From positions 347,623 through 411,622 of the forward strand of contig NZ_KQ034047.1 in assembly GCF_000970855.1 (NCBI RefSeq): DNA of 64,000 nt. Reading direction: 5' to 3'. This document shows positions 3,032 to 63,102 of the stretch, in pieces. The notes below the pieces were generated by a model. The model had not been told where the DNA came from and did no database searches. It saw only the letters and a list, made by a program, of their open reading frames with translations. Origin of the DNA: Lactobacillus helsingborgensis. Lineage in GTDB: Bacteria > Bacillota > Bacilli > Lactobacillales > Lactobacillaceae. Each line of letters opens with the position of its first letter. The first letter of the stretch is position 1. The translations under genes were made by a program, and so were the position numbers.

Positions 3032-3523
3032 TTACCTTTCTAAAACTTCGCGCAAATGGGCTAATAGATTATGTTTCAATCTTTGCAGCTGCACGCGACT
3101 TATTCCAGTTTGCCGGGCTAAAGCGCTGATTGTCTGCCCTTCGATAAGATGATTAAAAAATAACATCCGCTCTAATTGCGACATTTCCGTGAGTTCTTGG
3201 GCAAGAATTAATTGATTATCCCAGTTATTTAATTGCTCAATTTGCCCAGAAATTTCTGCTGGTACTTCCAACTCAGCTACTTGTTTATCCTTACGCAATA
3301 AATCAATGGTATGCCAGATAATTTTGCGAAAACTCAAGCGATCAACTTCCATTTGCTTCATGTCAGTGAATTTAGTTAACATTTCAGCGTAAACAATAAT
3401 ACCCTCAAGTAAAAAGTCTTCATAATTAGTATAGTCCAATCTGACATGCGCGGACTTCAATGCGCCTCTTACTAATTTTTGATTTTGCCATGCTCTTAAA
3501 AAAGCTTCCTTACTAATCTTCAT
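3032..3523 (-). CDS. Small sigma-70-family factor (ComX/SigH-like)
   Basis: 163-aa protein without signal peptide or membrane segment. The N-terminal half (about 20-75) resembles sigma region 2 (DFLLEGIIVYAEML, then FRKIIWHTIDLLRK). The C-terminal 45 residues form a region 4-like helix-turn-helix (LARQTGISRVQLQRLKHNLL). The size fits the short alternative or competence sigma factors of lactobacilli. I infer that it redirects RNA polymerase to a small regulon. The neighbouring ComK-like gene suggests a competence-related role, but this is not proven by sequence. A perfect 14-base palindrome lies 30 bases upstream of the start. It could alternatively be a phage-type RinA/ArpU-like regulator. 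Confidence 0.55.
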   Translation of the reverse strand: MKISKEAFLRAWQNQKLVRGALKSAHVRLDYTNYEDFLLEGIIVYAEMLTKFTDMKQMEVDRLSFRKIIWHTIDLLRKDKQVAELEVPAEISGQIEQLNNWDNQLILAQELTEMSQLERMLFFNHLIEGQTISALARQTGISRVQLQRLKHNLLAHLREVLER

Positions 3524-55780: not shown

Positions 55781-56008
55781 TTATAACTCTGCTAATCGTT
55801 TTTCATCTAAATGAAACATAATCATGCAATAAAGTAATAATATTGCAGTCATAAACACCACCACATAGATGTTAGTAGTTCCAGGAAGTTCACGTAAGAA
55901 ATCAGCCGGTGAATAACTTATAAAATATGGCAAATGGATAGTTGCATTCATTAATAATAAAATTATTTGCCATAAATATAGTAATTGATTCCAAAATAGA
56001 CGTTTCAT
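55781..56008 (-). CDS. Small two-helix membrane protein (function unknown)
   Basis: 75 aa. The N-terminal WNQLLYLWQIILLLMNATIH resembles the start of the upstream 247-aa protein (WDQFLFLWQLIKSRFLF). The C-terminal helix (VVVFMTAILLLYCMIMFHL) ends with DEKRLAEL. It follows the 247-aa gene by 143 bases on the same strand and may be an accessory subunit of it. No family recognised. A decayed copy is seen at 63350-63590. RBS AAGAAGG before ATG 56008. Confidence 0.55.
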   Translation of the reverse strand: MKRLFWNQLLYLWQIILLLMNATIHLPYFISYSPADFLRELPGTTNIYVVVFMTAILLLYCMIMFHLDEKRLAEL

Positions 56009-56151
56009 AAAGACCTTCTTTTTAAAAGTGAGGACAGCCGCAGCAATAAAGATAAATTAATTTGACTATTATAAATATCCAGTTTTTGTTTCTTATTTTT
56101 TCATTATCGTTTAATTCTATACATTCATAGTACCATTTTAGAATTAGACTT

Positions 56152-56895
56152 TTAATAATTCGGTTCACTGTAACGGTCAGTAATTAAATAAACAATTAGC
56201 ATTAATAGCGTTGTAGCTAATAACAGCAGAATATTGTTCTTATTGACTCGCAACAACATTAAACTATTGAGCGGATTATATTTCCAAGTGGTATAAATCG
56301 TGAGAATACACAGGCTAAAAGGAATAATTATACCCAATGGAGCATTGAAGTGACCAATAGTGGTTTGAATTATCAACAGCAGAAATATCCCTGAAAAATT
56401 AATAATGAACAGTACTAATAAAGCTAATATTCCCTGAAATTGCATCAGTTTAAAATTTCTTAGCCAAGAAAAATCAGTCATTAAAGTCATGATTCCTTCT
56501 GTTAGTACCACATAAATGAGGGTGATCAATCCCATTAAACCAACGTTAACTGCAGCGAAACTTAAGGGTGAGTATCTGAGCCCTCGCAATTGCATTCCTC
56601 TTACTTGCCACAATTGTTTAAAACTGCTTAAGACTATCAATAGCGGCACTACAAAATAAACAAACCAAAAAACAGGCAAAACTACTTGGCATGATTTGAC
56701 AGCTTTAAAATCAACACCCATGAAAAAAAGAGGAACTATAGCAGAATTAGGCATCAATTTCAGCATCAGTATTACAAAGCTGATTAAGCCTAGCCAAAAA
56801 AGAAAGCGTGATTTTATTAGTTGCCACAAAAATAAAAATTGGTCCCAAAATAAATTTACAAGAGATGCTTTTGAGTTTATTGCTTTATAGTGCAA
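56152..56895 (-). CDS. ABC-2-like membrane permease
   Basis: 247 aa with six hydrophobic helices (FLFWLGLISFVILML; VFWFVYFVVPLLIVL; AAVNVGLMGLITLIYVVL; GILALLVLFIINFSGIFLLL; IIPFSLCILTIYTTW; ILLLLATTLLMLIVYL). The layout is that of ABC-2 type or lantibiotic-immunity permeases, but no ATPase gene is adjacent in the same direction. The start is TTG at 56895, with AAGGAG about seven bases upstream. I infer a transport or resistance role; an orphan permease whose ATPase was lost is possible. Confidence 0.55.
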   Translation of the reverse strand: MHYKAINSKASLVNLFWDQFLFLWQLIKSRFLFWLGLISFVILMLKLMPNSAIVPLFFMGVDFKAVKSCQVVLPVFWFVYFVVPLLIVLSSFKQLWQVRGMQLRGLRYSPLSFAAVNVGLMGLITLIYVVLTEGIMTLMTDFSWLRNFKLMQFQGILALLVLFIINFSGIFLLLIIQTTIGHFNAPLGIIIPFSLCILTIYTTWKYNPLNSLMLLRVNKNNILLLLATTLLMLIVYLITDRYSEPNY

Positions 56896-57191: not shown

Positions 57192-57569
57192 TCATTTGAA
57201 TAATTCACTATGCGTTCCTATACCAATTAAAAAAACTGTTTCTTGTGTAGGAGCATATACTAATAAATGGTCACCACTATGACCTTCAAAATGAAGTTCC
57301 AGAATAATTACTGTTGCTCTTTTATCACTTAGCTGTTTTTTAACTTGTTTCTTTATATTGATTAAATTTTCCAAAGCATGCGGATGAAAATAATTAGGTA
57401 TTTTATTATCTTCAATCAAACATTGAATAATGAATTCCCAAGGGCTTCGTTCCTGATTATCAAGCTCTTGTGGAAGAGATCCTTTAAATACAGAATGCCA
57501 TTTCGGATCCTGCCTTCGCTTTTTTAACTGCTTTTTAAATACCTTAGTATATTTGATTGTTTTATCCAT
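57192..57569 (-). CDS. Type II toxin, YafQ/RelE family
   Basis: 125 aa, basic. It starts YTKVFKKQLKKRRQDPKW like YafQ/RelE mRNA interferases, has HALENLINIKKQVKKQL and a C-terminal strand set with LELHFEGHSGDHLLVYAPT where the His residues fit the YafQ active-site region. It is 30 residues longer than typical YafQ (about 92), with the extra part between the N-terminal helices and the core (VFKGSLPQELDNQER, IIQCLIEDNKIPN). It lies 18 bases downstream of the antitoxin gene. By family it cleaves mRNA on the ribosome. Confidence 0.75.
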   Translation of the reverse strand: MDKTIKYTKVFKKQLKKRRQDPKWHSVFKGSLPQELDNQERSPWEFIIQCLIEDNKIPNYFHPHALENLINIKKQVKKQLSDKRATVIILELHFEGHSGDHLLVYAPTQETVFLIGIGTHSELFK

Positions 57570-57587
57570 TTATCATATAAGATCCAA

Positions 57588-57854
57588 CTATTCATTTGAC
57601 TTGAGTAACTTTTCTAATTCTTTAAAATTATGAGCTTCTGGCAACTTTTCTTTTCCAGATAAATCATCAAGCATTTCTTCTAACGAACTGCTTAATTCTT
57701 GGTTAGGTAAAAAATAATATTTTGGTAAGCCCTGATTAGCCACAGTAGTTACCGTCATTCTAACAAATTCTGAAATTGTTAAACCATGGCTGGCAAGTAC
57801 TGTTTTCGCTTTATTTTTGATAGCTGGATCTATTCTAGCTTCTATTCTAGCCAT
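57588..57854 (-). CDS. Type II antitoxin, RelB/DinJ family
   Basis: 88 aa. The N-terminal ribbon-helix-helix (ARIEARIDPAIKNKAKTVLA, then HGLTISEFVRMTVTTVA) is typical of RelB/DinJ. The C-terminal acidic helical tail (EEMLDDLSGKEKLPEAHNF) would wrap the toxin. I start at ATG 57854 with GAGGTG upstream; the frame is open to 57893. It is the first gene of the pair and probably represses the operon by binding its own promoter. Confidence 0.8.
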   Translation of the reverse strand: MARIEARIDPAIKNKAKTVLASHGLTISEFVRMTVTTVANQGLPKYYFLPNQELSSSLEEMLDDLSGKEKLPEAHNFKELEKLLKSNE

Positions 57855-58084
57855 TTTTATCACCTCATTATCATTGTACGTCGAATGCCACACATGGTCA
57901 ATTACATAATTTTTCTTGTTTCAGGTGAATTTATAATTTCCTTTATTGATCATTCTTTTCACAATGTTAAGCAGTTTAAAGCTTTGATAAACCCCGCTAT
58001 TTTTAAATAGTGACTTAATTACTTTTCCATAACTAAGTCATTAAATTAACAGTTAAAATCTGGTATCATTTCATTCCTGTACTT

Positions 58085-59671
58085 TTAACTAATTGGGATT
58101 AGCTGCTTATCTTCTAATTTGTAAGCATGGGTGAACTTACTTTGCAAGTCCTCTGGAATATGGTGATCAATCTCAACCACTGTCAAGTCGGAAGATAAAA
58201 TCATTTCATGAATTTCATGAGCAGTTTGTGGGTCTAATGATGCGGTACCTTCATCAATTAATAAAAAGTTGCGATTATATAAAAAGGCACGAGCAATTTC
58301 TATACGTTTCTTTTCCCCACCTGACAAGTTAATGCCGTCTTCTTGAATTACGGCGTCAAGACCAATCTTTTGCATTAATGGCGTTAAACCCGCTTCTTGA
58401 ATGGCATGCTTAATCTCTTGGTCAGAAAAGTCACGCCCCAAAGTCAGGTTAAAACGCAAGGTATCATGAAAAATATTCGAATCCTGATTGACTTCGCCAA
58501 AGTAATCAGGCTGAGGAGAAACAACCTTACCATTTGGTTCAACTAATTCCACTGTTCCCTTATTTGGTTGGATAATATTTGCCATTAACCTGAGCAAGGT
58601 GCTCTTACCCTGCCCGCTGCGGCCAGTCAGCAGAATTTTATCACCACGATTAACCGTCAAGCTGGCATTTTGAATAATAGTCTTATCCTGATAGCCAAAA
58701 GTCACATCATTAAGTTGCAAGTCTTTGAAATCTATTGTCGTCATCTCGTCACTGAGAGTAGACTGTGGTAATTCCTTGATATTAGTCAGTTTCGTTAACA
58801 AGGGCTTAGCTGAGTTAATCGTTGTCATTGACCGGTTGATGGCCAAGATAGAATTTACGATCCAAGAACTGGAATACTGAACCATAATAAAGGAAGAAAG
58901 AGGCAAGCGCTTGTCTAAAACAAATAAAATACCAATCCCAATGGGCAGAAATGATAAGGTATAAGCCAGAATACCAGCCAGTAAATTGCTCATGGCAATC
59001 GTATTTTCCCGTTTCTGCTTCGCTTCAGCTGTTTCAGTAATTGCCTTCTTACCTTTCAGTAAAAAGAAAGGCATCGCATTATAATCCAAGATTAGGTCAA
59101 TGTGCTTGAGATAATCCGACATAAATCCTGTGTATTTGCCAACACTAGCACTCCAAGCTTTAGAACTTTCCATAACCCGTTTGGCCATAATTTTTGGAGC
59201 AATTGCTGAAATAACTGAGAAAAGCATAAAAATAAGAGTCAAGATAAAGTTTGCATTGATAGCCATAACCAAGCATAGCAGTAGGTTAACAATACAAGTA
59301 ATTAAATTAAATACTTCTTTGACATAATTATTTTCTACCAACTCTAAATCATTGGTGACAAATGACAACTTATCAGAAACTGGTCCTTGTTGTTTAACAA
59401 AATCTGAAGATAGCAGATCACTGCGTACGTTTTTATTGAAGAGGTAGATGTTCCGATTTAGTGTCCTCTCGTAAAAGTAGCGGGCAACAGTTAATAAGAA
59501 AATAATCAGAACAATCAAACAGACTTCTAGAACTACTCGTCTTTTATCACCAGCTTCAACCATGGCAAAGATTTGCGAATAAGACCACGTATTAAAAGGA
59601 GTAGCAAGACCTACGATCAGAGTCAACAAAAAACACAGGATTATGCTTTTGTTATCAAAATATTTTTTCAT
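58085..59671 (-). CDS. ABC exporter, fused membrane and ATPase domains
   Basis: 528 aa half-transporter. Membrane domain residues 8-290 with about six helices. ATPase with Walker A LTGRSGQGKSTLLRLMAN, signature LSGGEKKRIEIARAFL, Walker B FLLIDEGTASLD and a switch His in VVEIDHHIPED. There is no N-terminal peptidase domain. It is a paralog of the exporter at 41022. It is divergent from the lanthipeptide genes (600 bases apart) and is the nearest candidate for lanthipeptide export, but this is inference only. ATG 59671 with AAGGGAAC upstream is preferred to the in-frame ATG 59689, which overlaps the site. Confidence 0.85.
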   Translation of the reverse strand: MKKYFDNKSIILCFLLTLIVGLATPFNTWSYSQIFAMVEAGDKRRVVLEVCLIVLIIFLLTVARYFYERTLNRNIYLFNKNVRSDLLSSDFVKQQGPVSDKLSFVTNDLELVENNYVKEVFNLITCIVNLLLCLVMAINANFILTLIFMLFSVISAIAPKIMAKRVMESSKAWSASVGKYTGFMSDYLKHIDLILDYNAMPFFLLKGKKAITETAEAKQKRENTIAMSNLLAGILAYTLSFLPIGIGILFVLDKRLPLSSFIMVQYSSSWIVNSILAINRSMTTINSAKPLLTKLTNIKELPQSTLSDEMTTIDFKDLQLNDVTFGYQDKTIIQNASLTVNRGDKILLTGRSGQGKSTLLRLMANIIQPNKGTVELVEPNGKVVSPQPDYFGEVNQDSNIFHDTLRFNLTLGRDFSDQEIKHAIQEAGLTPLMQKIGLDAVIQEDGINLSGGEKKRIEIARAFLYNRNFLLIDEGTASLDPQTAHEIHEMILSSDLTVVEIDHHIPEDLQSKFTHAYKLEDKQLIPIS

Positions 59672-59865
59672 AATTGTTGTTCCCTTCATTTATATTTAAC
59701 TTTTTCCTGCTAAATTAAGCTTGTTGCAAAGATAAAATAAGATTTTTTATGTTCTAAAACATTTTTCATTATTATTTATTATTTAATTAAATCATAATCT
59801 AGTTTTAAAATATATAACTATTTACTAAGAGGTAGTTTTTTAAGACTAAGTGGTTATCAACAGCT

Positions 59866-60222: not shown

Positions 60223-60251
60223 TTGACAATAACTATATCTGGCAATACAAT
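60223..60251 (+). promoter_or_regulatory. Promoter of the lanthipeptide precursor gene
   Basis: TTGACA (60223-60228), exactly 17 bases, TACAAT (60246-60251). Near-consensus and 24 bases before the precursor ATG. Confidence 0.75.
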
Positions 60252-60274
60252 TAAAACAAAAGGAGGTGTTAGTG

Positions 60275-60394
60275 ATGAGTTTTGAACAAGCTTTACAAAA
60301 AGAGGCAGCAGGTAAGAATAGAAATTCTGAAGGATTAGTTAATAATAGATGGTCAACTTGTAGTTGCCCATGTCAATTAATACCTACTGACTAA
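60275..60394 (+). CDS. lanA: Class III lanthipeptide precursor peptide (LanA)
   Basis: 39-aa peptide just upstream of LanKC, with a strong AGGAGG eight bases before ATG. The N-terminal part is a helical, charged leader (MSFEQALQKEAAGKNRNSEG). The C-terminal WSTCSCPCQLIPTD holds Ser27, Thr28, Cys29, Ser30, Cys31 and Cys33. Ser27-X2-Ser30-X2-Cys33 is the labionin motif of class III lanthipeptides. Two extra cysteines and Thr28 could form further rings or a disulfide. There is no double-Gly site and no dedicated peptidase gene nearby, so leader removal may rely on general peptidases. The final core border is unknown. This small gene is easily missed by annotation. Confidence 0.8.
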   Translation: MSFEQALQKEAAGKNRNSEGLVNNRWSTCSCPCQLIPTD

Positions 60395-60436
60395 ATTTTT
60401 ATATTCATAAGATATTCAAGAAATATCGTTAAATAG

Positions 60437-60467
60437 GTGTCGTACTCAATAGTTCGACACTTTTTTT
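60437..60467 (+). terminator. Terminator/attenuator between lanA and lanKC
   Basis: GTGTCGTACT/AGTTCGACAC stem (one T-T mismatch) with a CAAT loop and T7, 42 bases past the precursor stop and 13 bases before the lanKC start. Partial read-through would give much more precursor than enzyme mRNA. Confidence 0.8.
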
Positions 60468-60480
60468 GAAAGAGAAAAAA

Positions 60481-63102
60481 ATGGACATACTTACTACCAA
60501 ATTAAATAATGATAAATATAATTATTATTTCTATAAAAAAAGCGATAATTCTACAGGATGTTTTATTAACTTAGAACAATATCAATCAAAATATCACTGT
60601 CTAATAAAAAGACAGGGAATTTTTACTAATATATTTTTCCCTACTAAAACTCAGTATCCTGCCCAAGGATGGAAAATACATGTATCTACTGATATATATA
60701 ATTCTCATGAGATAATAAAAATTGTTTCATCATACTTAGGATGTAAAAAAATACTATTCAAATTTATTACTAATATGTCTACATTATTAAAAACCACTGG
60801 TAAAAACTTCCCAGAAATGCAATTTGGAAAATTTATTACCATTTATACATGTAGCAGAACTCAAACAAAAAATATCGGAGAAGAATTAACTAGGCTACTC
60901 AAGAAATTCAGTGGAATTAAAGTATTAACAGATCGAAACTTTCCAAACTCTGAAATAGTTTCTTATCGCTATGGCGGAATAAATCCTGAGTGGAAAATAA
61001 GCAACAACAATGACCGAGTTTATAAAATTAAAGATGGCAATAATAGTAATATTACAGACAGTAGAAAAAATTTCTTTTACTTACCAAATGGCGTAAAAGA
61101 TATTTATCCAATGGAAGAAACAGAAGAATCTGACTTAAATAAGTACTTTCCAAATATAAAAATATTGGAAGTTATCAGAAATACCAATGAGGGAATAAAC
61201 CTCATTGCGGAATTTGACCAACAAAAGAAAACGAAAGTTATCCTTAAGGAAGGGAAGCACCTATCTATTTTAACCAGTGAACATTCAAAATTTGATGGGT
61301 CTTATTTTAAACAAAATGAAGCCAAAGTTTTAAAAAAATTTGATGAGTGTAATTTCACTCCTAAATTTATTGATGCTAAAATTATTGATAATAATTTTTA
61401 CTTAATCGAACAAAAAATGCCTGGTATTTCTCTTAAAGAATTCGGACCTACAAACCCTATTCTAAAAAGCAATCATACAGGAACAGAAGTAAGACAATAT
61501 TTAAATGACTGCTTTATTATTACAGAGAATCTAATTAAAATACTTATCTATTTTACAAAACACAACATGATTATTAGTGACATTTCTCCTGATAATTTTA
61601 TGTATGATAAACAAAAAAACAAGCTATTTATCGTTGATTTAGAATCCGTACAAAGTATCAACAATACACATATCCCTCTAATGAGAACTGATGGCTTTTT
61701 CAATCCAAAAACCAAATTAGGCACAATAGAGAGTGATATAAGTGGCATAGGCTTAACGATATTTTATCTTTTCTTTTCTAAGAGCATCGAAATAGAGTTC
61801 AGACCTGAAGAAATAATGTTAGATATTAAATATGTGAAAAATATTTTTAAACAAAAAGAACTAGACTCTTATTTTGAAATAGTCGAGCAACTAATCTTTT
61901 CCCCTCAAAAGATAAATCTTGATGATGTATTAAATAAGGTAAAATATTTACATAATAATTTTTTAAATAATAAGGATTTAACAATCAATAAAAATCCTTT
62001 ATTTGATAAAAAATTTTTAAAAAATCAAATTGAGGAAACTTTTAATTCCTTACTTAATCAGACAAAGAATCAATGCAAGCAAAATTATCATTTTTCAAAA
62101 AAAAGGATAACTCCATACTATAAAAATGTTTTTTCTTATTCCTATGGACTAGCTGGAATTGAGAACGTACTTTTTAACATTACAAAAGACAAAAAATATA
62201 AAAAATTATTTTATAAAGAATTTAAAAACTTTAATTATACAGATAATTTATCATTAACTTTAAGCGGTGGGTTAGCAGGTATATTATATTCTTTACCCTC
62301 GCAAAGCAAATTACATGCCACAATTATTAAAAAGTTAGTTGATTACATCAATAAAAGTGAAGATTCAAATTTTGGACTATTCAATGGCTACTCGGGAGTG
62401 GGATTATCCCTAATTAATAATTCAAAGCTTAATAAAAGTACAAGATCTACTCTTTCATTATTAGCGACTAAATTAACAAGTGAAGAAATTTTACTCAATA
62501 ACGATTTCGTTGGCTTAGCTGAAGGGGGCGCTGGTATAGCATATTTTTTATTAAGATATGAGCAAAAAATGGAATCCCATGAGTATGATGATTTTATTTA
62601 TAAATGGATTTTACATGATTTTAATTGTGCAATATCTGACAAAAACGAAAAATTTGTCGGCCTGCCGTCAAAAAAGGGTAAAACCATAGCCTACCCATAT
62701 TTACTATATGGAACAGCTGGGTTACTCCGAGTAACTTTAGAAACTTATGACCATTGCCCTAAATTAAGACCTTATTTAAAAGAAAAAATTATTCAAATGG
62801 CAGAAAGTTTAGACCTACCATATACTGCATATTATGGCTATTTTTTTGGAGCTGCTGGAATTGTAGACACGATGATTGAGTTTAATAATCGTTTTCCTTC
62901 AAATAAAGCTCAACGTATCATTAATCGTCTTTTATCATATATTATGCTTCATAAATTTAAAGCACCTTTTGGTGACATTTTAATTTTGTCTGACCAATTA
63001 CAAGGAGTTGGAACAGATTTAGGATCAGGTATGATTGGTATGCTCAAAGTCTTTGGCAAATATTGCAATGATTTAGAATATGATAGTTTGTGGAAAATAT
63101 AG
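60481..63102 (+). CDS. lanKC: Class III lanthipeptide synthetase (LanKC)
   Basis: 873 aa with the three-part class III plan. The lyase domain (about 1-215) has AQGWKIHVSTD, FGKFITIYTCS and YRYGGINPEW. The kinase domain (about 225-520) has Lys256 (VILKEG), the catalytic loop MIISDISPDNFM (Asp367, Asn372) and Asp386 (VDLES). The LanC-like cyclase (about 555-873) has FNGYSGVGLS, GLAEGGAGIAYFLLRYE, LLYGTAGLLRV and YGYFFGAAGIVD. The zinc Cys and Cys-His positions of LanC/LanL are replaced (Tyr-Gly-Thr-Ala-Gly; Phe-Phe-Gly), which separates class III from class IV. It phosphorylates and eliminates Ser/Thr in the precursor, then forms the rings. I start at ATG 60481; a TTG at 60466 is in frame but overlaps the terminator. 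The gene is distinctly AT-rich. Confidence 0.9.
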   Translation: MDILTTKLNNDKYNYYFYKKSDNSTGCFINLEQYQSKYHCLIKRQGIFTNIFFPTKTQYPAQGWKIHVSTDIYNSHEIIKIVSSYLGCKKILFKFITNMSTLLKTTGKNFPEMQFGKFITIYTCSRTQTKNIGEELTRLLKKFSGIKVLTDRNFPNSEIVSYRYGGINPEWKISNNNDRVYKIKDGNNSNITDSRKNFFYLPNGVKDIYPMEETEESDLNKYFPNIKILEVIRNTNEGINLIAEFDQQKKTKVILKEGKHLSILTSEHSKFDGSYFKQNEAKVLKKFDECNFTPKFIDAKIIDNNFYLIEQKMPGISLKEFGPTNPILKSNHTGTEVRQYLNDCFIITENLIKILIYFTKHNMIISDISPDNFMYDKQKNKLFIVDLESVQSINNTHIPLMRTDGFFNPKTKLGTIESDISGIGLTIFYLFFSKSIEIEFRPEEIMLDIKYVKNIFKQKELDSYFEIVEQLIFSPQKINLDDVLNKVKYLHNNFLNNKDLTINKNPLFDKKFLKNQIEETFNSLLNQTKNQCKQNYHFSKKRITPYYKNVFSYSYGLAGIENVLFNITKDKKYKKLFYKEFKNFNYTDNLSLTLSGGLAGILYSLPSQSKLHATIIKKLVDYINKSEDSNFGLFNGYSGVGLSLINNSKLNKSTRSTLSLLATKLTSEEILLNNDFVGLAEGGAGIAYFLLRYEQKMESHEYDDFIYKWILHDFNCAISDKNEKFVGLPSKKGKTIAYPYLLYGTAGLLRVTLETYDHCPKLRPYLKEKIIQMAESLDLPYTAYYGYFFGAAGIVDTMIEFNNRFPSNKAQRIINRLLSYIMLHKFKAPFGDILILSDQLQGVGTDLGSGMIGMLKVFGKYCNDLEYDSLWKI

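Follow-up and report, generated by a model that had tools for sequence, protein, structure and literature searches.

The window analysed here, a 64-kb stretch of the Lactobacillus helsingborgensis contig NZ_KQ034047.1, probably carries a two-gene class III lanthipeptide operon in which a short precursor gene, lanA, is followed by a lanthionine synthetase gene, lanKC, of a divergent enzyme branch (Table 1). Judged by sequence, the LanKC branch, which falls below the NCBI cut-off for LanKC, is new, and so is the unusual presence of cysteines inside the ring motif of the precursor.

Table 1. Features of the lanA-lanKC locus and of the neighbouring exporter gene, in window positions
Feature	Position	Strand	Remarks
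Locus, lanA then lanKC	60223..63102	+
Promoter, sigma-70-type, TTGACA-17-TACAAT	60223..60251	+	Consensus match only
Ribosome-binding site AAGGAGG	60260..60266	+	Ends 8 bases 5' of the lanA ATG; read from sequence
lanA, class III precursor, 39 aa, MSFEQALQKEAAGKNRNSEGLVNNRWSTCSCPCQLIPTD	60275..60394	+	Homologous frame in G069; codon pattern
Leader, residues 1-25, with LQK box (LQ half of the class III LxLQ motif)	60275..60349	+
Core WSTCSCPCQLIPTD, S27-x2-S30-x2-C33, extra Cys29 and Cys31	60350..60391	+
Stem-loop and T run in the lanA/lanKC gap	60435..60467	+	Possible partial terminator
lanKC, 873 aa, lanthionine synthetase of class III type with lyase, kinase and zinc-less cyclase	60481..63102	+
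ABC exporter, divergent to the operon; membrane and ATPase domains	58085..59689	-	Pfam ABC_membrane, ABC_tran

A sequence-only reading of this DNA had proposed the 39-residue frame and a full LanKC, with core residues numbered from Ser27 to Cys33; both genes are present as described and the numbering is correct. We regard lanA as a real gene because a homologous frame occupies the same position in Lactobacillus genome G069 (E 4.4e-5, 49% over residues 1-35) and because the changes between the two cores are mostly silent (six silent changes and one replacement in nine core codons). The G069 frame is also preceded by a ribosome-binding site similar to AAGGAGG. As a control, the window was shuffled 40 times by mononucleotides and both strands were read: of 374 small frames led by a ribosome-binding site, 5 had S/T-x2-S/T-x(2-5)-C within the final 20 residues, a rate of about 0.13 in 64 kb. 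The real window holds four small frames led by such a site; one of them has the motif, and it stands 86 bases 5' of lanKC. The homology, the shuffle control and the codon pattern rule out lanA as a chance frame. The pairing of close enzyme homologues with a different precursor was also checked; since the precursor in G069 is homologous, the proposed pair stands.

We infer that the boundary of leader and core lies between residues 25 and 26. The leader reads QALQK at the place of the LxLQ motif described as frequent in class III (PMC7268733): the LQ half is present, and Gln5 stands at the place of the first Leu. The corresponding G069 sequence is QILQK, and MSFxQxLQK is common to both leaders. 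The core of about 14 residues contains three Cys and four Ser/Thr, and the ring motif S/T-x2-S/T-x(2-5)-C is present as STCSCPC. The promoter and strong ribosome-binding site ascribed to lanA from sequence were confirmed. The promoter matches 11 of 12 consensus bases; of the 15 promoter-like sites between 59690 and 60700, against 8.0 expected, it ranks first. The predicted folding energy of 60395-60480 is -15.6 kcal/mol (z -2.15; equalled or bettered by 5 of 200 shuffles), and the stem-loop of this region is not among the sites listed by the terminator scan.

The lanKC frame runs through 873 codons without an internal stop. Its product matches the Pfam families RamC_N in the lyase (E 6.7e-36) and LANC_like (E 8.8e-13, 48 bits), with a Pkinase match (E 0.001, 19 bits) under the Pfam cut-off of 31.7. 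All 14 catalytic residues compared in the lyase and kinase are retained: K65, H67, K94, K108, K117, D151, R163 and R195, equated by motif with eight residues given for the ThurKC lyase (PMC10604976), and Lys256, Glu280, Asp367, Asn372, Asp386 and Glu388 of the kinase. By alignment, Leu742, Phe788 and Phe789 occupy the zinc-ligand places of the cyclase, and neither CHG nor C.G..G occurs in the C-terminal part, where CHG is found in 4 of 97 alignment rows. The whole length of LanKC matches by profile the PDB LanKC chains 8sam/8sap/8sao (E about 1e-199), which we take to be ThurKC. Domain matches, active-site conservation and this full-length match to solved structures back the earlier assignment to class III with a zinc-less cyclase. 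NCBIfam models give 335.5 bits for lanthi_synth_III against 178.6 for lanthi_synth_IV; class IV (LanL) was rejected on the absence of zinc ligands and on the latter score, 650 bits being required. A defence kinase was likewise rejected, the PADLOC PD-T4-6 matches reaching at most 48 bits and being confined to the kinase part.

The 97-row alignment, from which proteins shorter than 750 or longer than 1050 aa, X-containing sequences, duplicates and the window's own copies were excluded (an alignment with fragments, A1, gave a consensus of no use), reveals departures from the common pattern. The second P-loop glycine, Gly in 89 of the 96 other rows, is Ile239; Leu241 stands where 92 of 96 have Tyr, and Thr359 where 95 of 96 have His. 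Phe789 takes the place of Asp771, proposed as the general base in ThurKC (PMC10604976); of the 96 others, 15 have Asp at that place and 10 have Phe. Together with the loss of the pathway in the nearest relative, G069, and the narrow distribution, the P-loop and catalytic-loop departures would fit an inactive relic whose genes are read but whose impaired kinase yields no product. We consider this quite improbable, given the uninterrupted frame, the near-consensus promoter and strong ribosome site, the retained kinase residues, and a lanKC dN/dS of about 0.12 against G069 (dN 0.21, dS 1.81 over 183 codons), a comparison limited by a dS close to saturation and by a G069 branch that in part represents a broken gene. 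Substitution patterns, as read from sequence, show purifying selection on both lanA and lanKC.

At 335.5 bits LanKC lies below the 575-bit cut-off of NF038151, the LanKC equivalog, and is therefore not filed under that equivalog; we place it in a divergent branch. The LanKCs of L. pasteurii (264.1) and G628 (502.7) also score below it; four of the five other Lactobacillus LanKCs scored are above it, with 631-684 bits. The nearest enzyme relative is the broken LanKC copy of G069. In trees of the lyase-kinase part, the L. pasteurii enzyme (L042/L109) is the sister of the window LanKC (0.989; 0.979), and that of G628 stands apart. A W-S-T-x-S-x-x-C core theme also precedes LanKC in both; since G628 shares this core yet groups elsewhere, the theme is either old or convergent, and we do not claim it as a clade marker. 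A contig search with the single LanKC protein found no relative; with a two-row alignment, L. pasteurii was the only Lactobacillus by title among the best 80 of 212 relatives. A phage origin was rejected in the absence of phage matches, and the precursor pattern occurred in none of the viral contigs. A plasmid origin was rejected as well: 77 plasmid records match, all below 60% identity and none over more than 80% of the query.

An inner Cys within the ring motif was found in 2 of 22 candidate precursors, and in addition in the broken G069 copy. The 22 frames were picked by hand for a leader-like start; motif frames lacking one were excluded, as were second starts and the G006 copy, and the G069 frame is tallied separately. 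As all 22 have the ring motif by selection, only the share with an inner Cys or with WST is informative, and because the search demanded both this motif and a ribosome site, it passed over precursors built differently. The core had been described as unlike the class III cores known. This holds for the inner Cys; a core with a single short S-x2-S-x(2-5)-C motif, in contrast, is a known Bacillota layout reported to give labionin (PMC8960859), and WSTxSxxC recurs in L. pasteurii, G628 and Paenibacillus lentus (PMC11594732).

The two extra cysteines differ in their conservation. Cys31 is shared with the cores of G069 and G016 (the G006 copy is identical to the latter), with a silent codon difference between the window and G069. 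Cys29 is seen in the window alone, its place being taken by Gly in G069, Leu in L. pasteurii, Phe in G628, and Leu in G059 and G016; Cys29 was therefore rejected as a conserved part of a ring. Residue 28 is Thr or Ser in the window and in all these cores. The joint presence of Thr/Ser28 and Cys31 in the window, G069 and G016, the silent change that retained Cys31, and the lack in LanKC of the base proposed for ThurKC would agree with two interlocked thioether rings and no labionin, formed by Thr28-Cys31 (methyllanthionine) and Ser30-Cys33 (lanthionine) with Ser27 used or not. Such rings seem unlikely to us: L. pasteurii, G628 and G059 keep Thr/Ser28 and all lack Cys31, so residue 28 does not track Cys31, and single-motif Bacillota cores are reported to yield labionin (PMC8960859).

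A second ring or a disulfide through the extra cysteines, as envisaged in the sequence-only reading, is possible. A labionin or lanthionine over 27/30/33 might be joined by a lasting disulfide, either Cys29-Cys31 or intermolecular via Cys31, an arrangement we rate as conceivable but on the unlikely side. It has a parallel in paenithopeptins, where labionin is reported within a larger disulfide ring (PMC8960859), and Cys31 is shared by G069 and by G016/G006. Against it, the G069 and G016 cores hold no partner Cys beyond the ring Cys, and the genome has no match to DSBA (PF01323) or Thioredoxin_4 (PF13462), for which 8 and 9 of 14 control genomes were positive, the control Lactococcus lactis not being among the positives. 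As the paenithopeptin disulfide ring is larger than the labionin, its extra Cys lies, on our present reading of that report, outside the motif, unlike those of lanA. The CxCxC spacing might further suggest that free cysteines bind a metal ion and that the product serves as a metallophore or as a signal related to metals instead of as an antagonist. This is very improbable: Cys29 is replaced in each of the other cores listed above, and no metal-related Pfam family was matched by the ten scanned proteins, among them those of lanA and lanKC. A final variant, which we find doubtful, is a caged seven-residue ring system, with labionin 27/30/33 cross-braced via Cys31 (by a Thr28 thioether, or a disulfide to Cys29 or a second molecule) and formed without zinc, a ThurKC-type Asp base, or a known protease or oxidase partner.

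The divergent ABC gene is a candidate exporter of the product. Its best NCBIfam match is the streptosactin exporter GggC (190.8 bits, below the 750 cut-off), it is 28% identical to the ABC gene adjoining the G069 LanKC remnant, and no peptidase domain was matched in it. The gene order is lanA-lanKC-ABC in G628 and LanKC remnant then ABC in G069; here, unlike in the relatives compared, the ABC gene lies outside the operon. No protease gene was seen adjoining lanA-lanKC, and the M16 peptidase family M16_C (PF05193) has no match in the genome (G000, 99.98% complete), with 9 of 14 control genomes positive. The ten proteins scanned gave no methyltransferase Pfam match.

In the two-gene class III reading that we prefer, lanA would be driven by the promoter in front of it, and the hairpin 3' of lanA would lower the expression of lanKC. 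The leader would dock on LanKC via its LQK box; Ser27 and Ser30, perhaps also Thr28, would be phosphorylated by the kinase and eliminated by the lyase to dehydro residues. Cys33 would then add to residue 30, and the enolate would either attack residue 27 to give labionin 27/30/33 or be protonated to lanthionine. Cys29 and Cys31, variable positions inside the motif, would remain thiols inside the cell and might undergo oxidation once exported, pairing with each other or across molecules. The product would leave via the divergent ABC exporter, with housekeeping peptidases, perhaps the M1 aminopeptidase, trimming the leader. Antagonism of close relatives, or signalling to them, is the likely role; against antagonism stands the report that Melissococcus plutonius was not inhibited by supernatants from bee-gut Lactobacillus strains that carry lanthipeptide loci (PMC10673953). 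Points against the overall reading are the score of 335.5/575, the P-loop, catalytic-loop and Asp771-place departures, the half LxLQ motif, the missing adjoining protease and M16_C, the exporter outside the operon, and a sole close relative that is broken.

ThurKC/ThurA of Bacillus thuringiensis, as described (PMC10604976), resembles the locus in its three-domain LanKC without zinc ligands and with conserved lyase and kinase residues, in the LQ of its LELQL leader motif, and in a cluster without a protease. It differs in its general-base Asp771 and second P-loop Gly, both replaced here, in its use of M16B proteases, and in the ThurA1 core, with Cys at 23 and 11 dehydrations. The two enzymes are remote (phmmer E 9e-22 over residues 16-433). 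Bacinapeptins and paenithopeptins likewise have one motif and one labionin per core, with an M16B protease pair that the window genome lacks (PMC8960859). Labionin has been demonstrated for bacinapeptins (PMC8960859) and for andalusicin (PMC11557216), a Bacillus class III product with a single C-terminal labionin made by AncKC; andalusicin differs from lanA in its 23 residues, 11 dehydro residues and cluster methyltransferase. The P. lentus P8CEA5 LP core ends in WSTASNHC, and colony MALDI-TOF reportedly gave a mass consistent with the dehydrated peptide (PMC11594732), but this core is long and Thr-rich, with a single Cys, and belongs to another genus. The L. pasteurii locus shares with the window a sister enzyme below the NCBI cut-off and has the core SWSTLSQNC; its LanKC is only 27% identical, its core has a single Cys, and an ABC gene follows in the same run. 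The bee-gut Firm5 class III/IV loci (PMC10673953) and the Lactobacillus precursor group Pre_181 (PMC8960859) are reported LanKC loci of the same genus.

Few class III products from lactobacilli had been thought known, and our literature search found none from Lactobacillus that had been characterised; the genes, however, are common, with matches to this LanKC, some partial, in 34 of 199 genomes searched, the genome of the window counted. What decides labionin formation is described as an open question (PMC10604976). With one short peptide, one enzyme and a divergent cyclase without the base proposed for ThurKC, the locus is a compact test object, bearing on the determinant of labionin formation and on how class III enzymes handle competing cysteines in the target motif.

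The 39-codon frame lanA is a real gene. Across 199 relatives, 397 family and 395 order genomes (overlapping sets), the closest relative of the window LanKC lies in genome G069 (56% over residues 19-207). The G069 lanKC is broken by stops and a frame break, has lost its kinase and cyclase parts, and is directly followed by an ABC gene. Upstream of this remnant stands MSFKQILQKKVENMSIDNE, then an in-frame stop and SVVYSWSTGSCPCQVGGIR; the frame matches the window precursor with E 4.4e-5, the sole match below 0.01 besides the window among 75 genus genomes. Seven of the nine codons for WSTxSCPCQ differ between the two, six silently and one by replacement, the Cys at position 29 of the window precursor being Gly in G069, a silent excess with a probability of 0.0013 if a quarter of changes are silent by chance. 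The homologous frame and this excess bear out the precursor proposed in the sequence-only reading. Between the lanKC genes, dN is 0.21 and dS 1.81 over 183 codons, with dS near saturation and the G069 branch partly that of a broken gene. Of the 397 family genomes, two contain a DNA match to the WSTxSCPC pattern, the window's and G069.

Features of the lanA-lanKC region (G000:C3:347623-411622, genome of 2.0 Mb), in window positions
Feature	Position	Strand	Remark
Hydrophobic protein and 75-aa frame	55781-56895		247 aa; no family match (Pfam, NCBIfam)
DinJ/YafQ-type toxin-antitoxin pair	57192-57893		Pfam RelB, YafQ_toxin; between divergent exporter and membrane-protein genes
Divergent ABC gene, candidate exporter	58085-59689	-	Pfam membrane and ATPase domains
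Promoter TTGACA-17-TACAAT	5' of lanA	+	consensus match
Ribosome site AAGGAGG	5' of lanA	+	sequence
lanA	60275-60394	+	39-codon frame, downstream of promoter and ribosome site
RNA stem-loop with T run	60395-60480		lanA-lanKC gap; -15.6 kcal/mol, z -2.15 (folding)
lanKC	60481-63102	+	873 aa; starts 86 bases past lanA
363-aa protein	63636 onward (L037 9259-10350)	-	3' of lanKC

The terminator scan does not list the stem-loop between the two genes, so its role as a partial terminator is a suggestion only. The G+C content of lanKC is 27.8% against 35.3% for the window, which may be in keeping with arrival from elsewhere. Residues 21-74 of the 75-aa frame are 47% identical to L052 664-828, about 6 kb from another G069 LanKC. 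The 363-aa protein has a CxxC...DHIVP...CxxC layout, which we take to be like that of HNH nucleases, and had no match among the compared loci outside its own genome. Elsewhere in this genome, contig C4 carries a second LanKC-like gene (L038 3167-6322) with RamC_N matches and a run of N inside, and a small Cys-bearing frame (3167-3277) shortly 5' of it. At L039 7709-11804 (C3, about 21.7-25.8 kb), a 986-aa frame, presumably LanB-like from its look, precedes a 385-aa LanC whose zinc motif letters are SWCNG and CHG; this is probably a class I locus.

The lanKC product matches RamC_N and LANC_like over the Pfam cut-offs and Pkinase under its cut-off; in NCBIfam, class III (335.5 bits) exceeds class IV (178.6 bits), each under its own cut-off. 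A profile from 13 LanKCs gave whole-length matches to several PDB LanKC chains, with 9wj0 at the top (E 5.8e-207) and 8sam, 8sap and 8sao next (E about 1e-199). We take the latter three to be ThurKC, the Bacillus thuringiensis enzyme, because their entries are called class III LanKC and leader-LanKC fusion, and because Ser726, Phe770 and Asp771 of ThurKC coincide with the same letters in 8sap at a constant shift of 3 in the profile alignment. The conserved lyase residues reported for ThurKC (Lys65, His67, Lys94, Lys108, Lys117, Asp152, Arg163 and Arg191; PMC10604976) have counterparts by motif in K65, H67, K94, K108, K117, D151, R163 and R195 of the window enzyme, found in 96, 96, 96, 86, 96, 96, 96 and 91 of 96 other LanKCs. 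The kinase residues K256, E280, D367, N372, D386 and E388 (92, 95, 95, 95, 96 and 91 of 96) are likewise retained, making 14 of 14 compared. The zinc-ligand places of the cyclase are occupied by Leu742, Phe788 and Phe789; at the last place 15 of the 96 have Asp and 10 have Phe. Four of 97 alignment rows carry CHG in their C-terminal part, the window not among them. The lyase, kinase and zinc-less cyclase first read from the sequence are thus upheld, the Pkinase match staying below cut-off. Other positions count against this reading: the second P-loop glycine, kept in 89 of 96 others, is replaced by Ile239, the Tyr of 92 by Leu241 and the His of 95 by Thr359, and the window enzyme departs at 24 columns of the 97-row alignment where at least 85% of the others share one residue.

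Trees built from the lyase-kinase part place the window LanKC as sister to that of L. pasteurii (support 0.989), with G059, G006 and G016, whose enzymes are split, joining next (0.629). Another taxon choice gave 0.979 for the pair and 0.875 for the grouping with G016 and G059; the G628 LanKC falls outside the group. Three enzymes score under the NCBI LanKC cut-off of 575 bits (window 335.5, L. pasteurii 264.1, G628 502.7), and the remaining four same-genus LanKCs scored (G034, G007, G068, G032) reach 631-684 bits. Annotation by this cut-off would probably leave the window gene unnamed as a LanKC. In the split synthetases of G016, G006 and G059 (L047 7455-10068; L043; L106), one frame of about 505 aa encodes the lyase-kinase part and another the cyclase; the precursor comes next, then an ABC gene.

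Core peptides of the window precursor and its kin
Source	Core
Window	RWSTCSCPCQLIPTD
G069	SWSTGSCPCQVGGIR
L. pasteurii	SWSTLSQNCFNQTN
G628	GWSTFSIVCHLG
G059	RFASSLSVGCSVG
G016 and G006	HFASSLSCGCSAFH

The six cores have S-(T/S)-x-S-x-x-C in common, with variable x positions. Cys31 is present in the window, G069 and G016/G006 cores, and Cys29 in the window core only. Among 22 candidate precursors, hand-picked for a leader-like start, two have Cys within the motif (window, G016) and three have WSTxSxxC (window, L. pasteurii, G628). The window core shares W-S-T-x-S-x-x-C with a Paenibacillus lentus precursor reported to end in ATWSTASNHC (PMC11594732).

The chemistry, export and role of the product are all predicted. 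The ring proposed for the window core would follow from single-motif precedents: bacinapeptin and paenithopeptin precursors are described with one S-x2-S-x(2-5)-C motif each and labionin in the product, paenithopeptins with a disulfide besides (PMC8960859), and andalusicin with a single C-terminal labionin (PMC11557216). The divergent ABC gene is a candidate exporter from its domains; the Pfam scan gave no peptidase domain match in it, and it is 28% identical to the ABC gene adjoining the G069 remnant. A LanKC is followed by an ABC gene in L042, L043, L047, L089 and L199. A leader-like frame (MADVLALQALQ...) with zero Cys is found 5' of the LanKC of G327, at L089 4149-4256. M16_C, DSBA and Thioredoxin_4, partners known from Bacillota, have no match in the window's own genome. 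That genome does encode a Peptidase_M1 enzyme; M1-type proteases trim class III leaders in actinobacteria, and AplP-like proteases are described as having failed on a Firmicutes precursor.

LanKC genes (PMC10673953) and a precursor group, Pre_181 (PMC8960859), have already been reported in Lactobacillus, and passages of a lactic acid bacteria survey (PMC10134562) do not name LanKC. No characterised class III product from Lactobacillus was found in the literature searched, which mostly excluded subscription papers and does not imply absence from print. New here are the divergent LanKC branch and the Cys within the motif, one kept in kin and one seen in the window alone.
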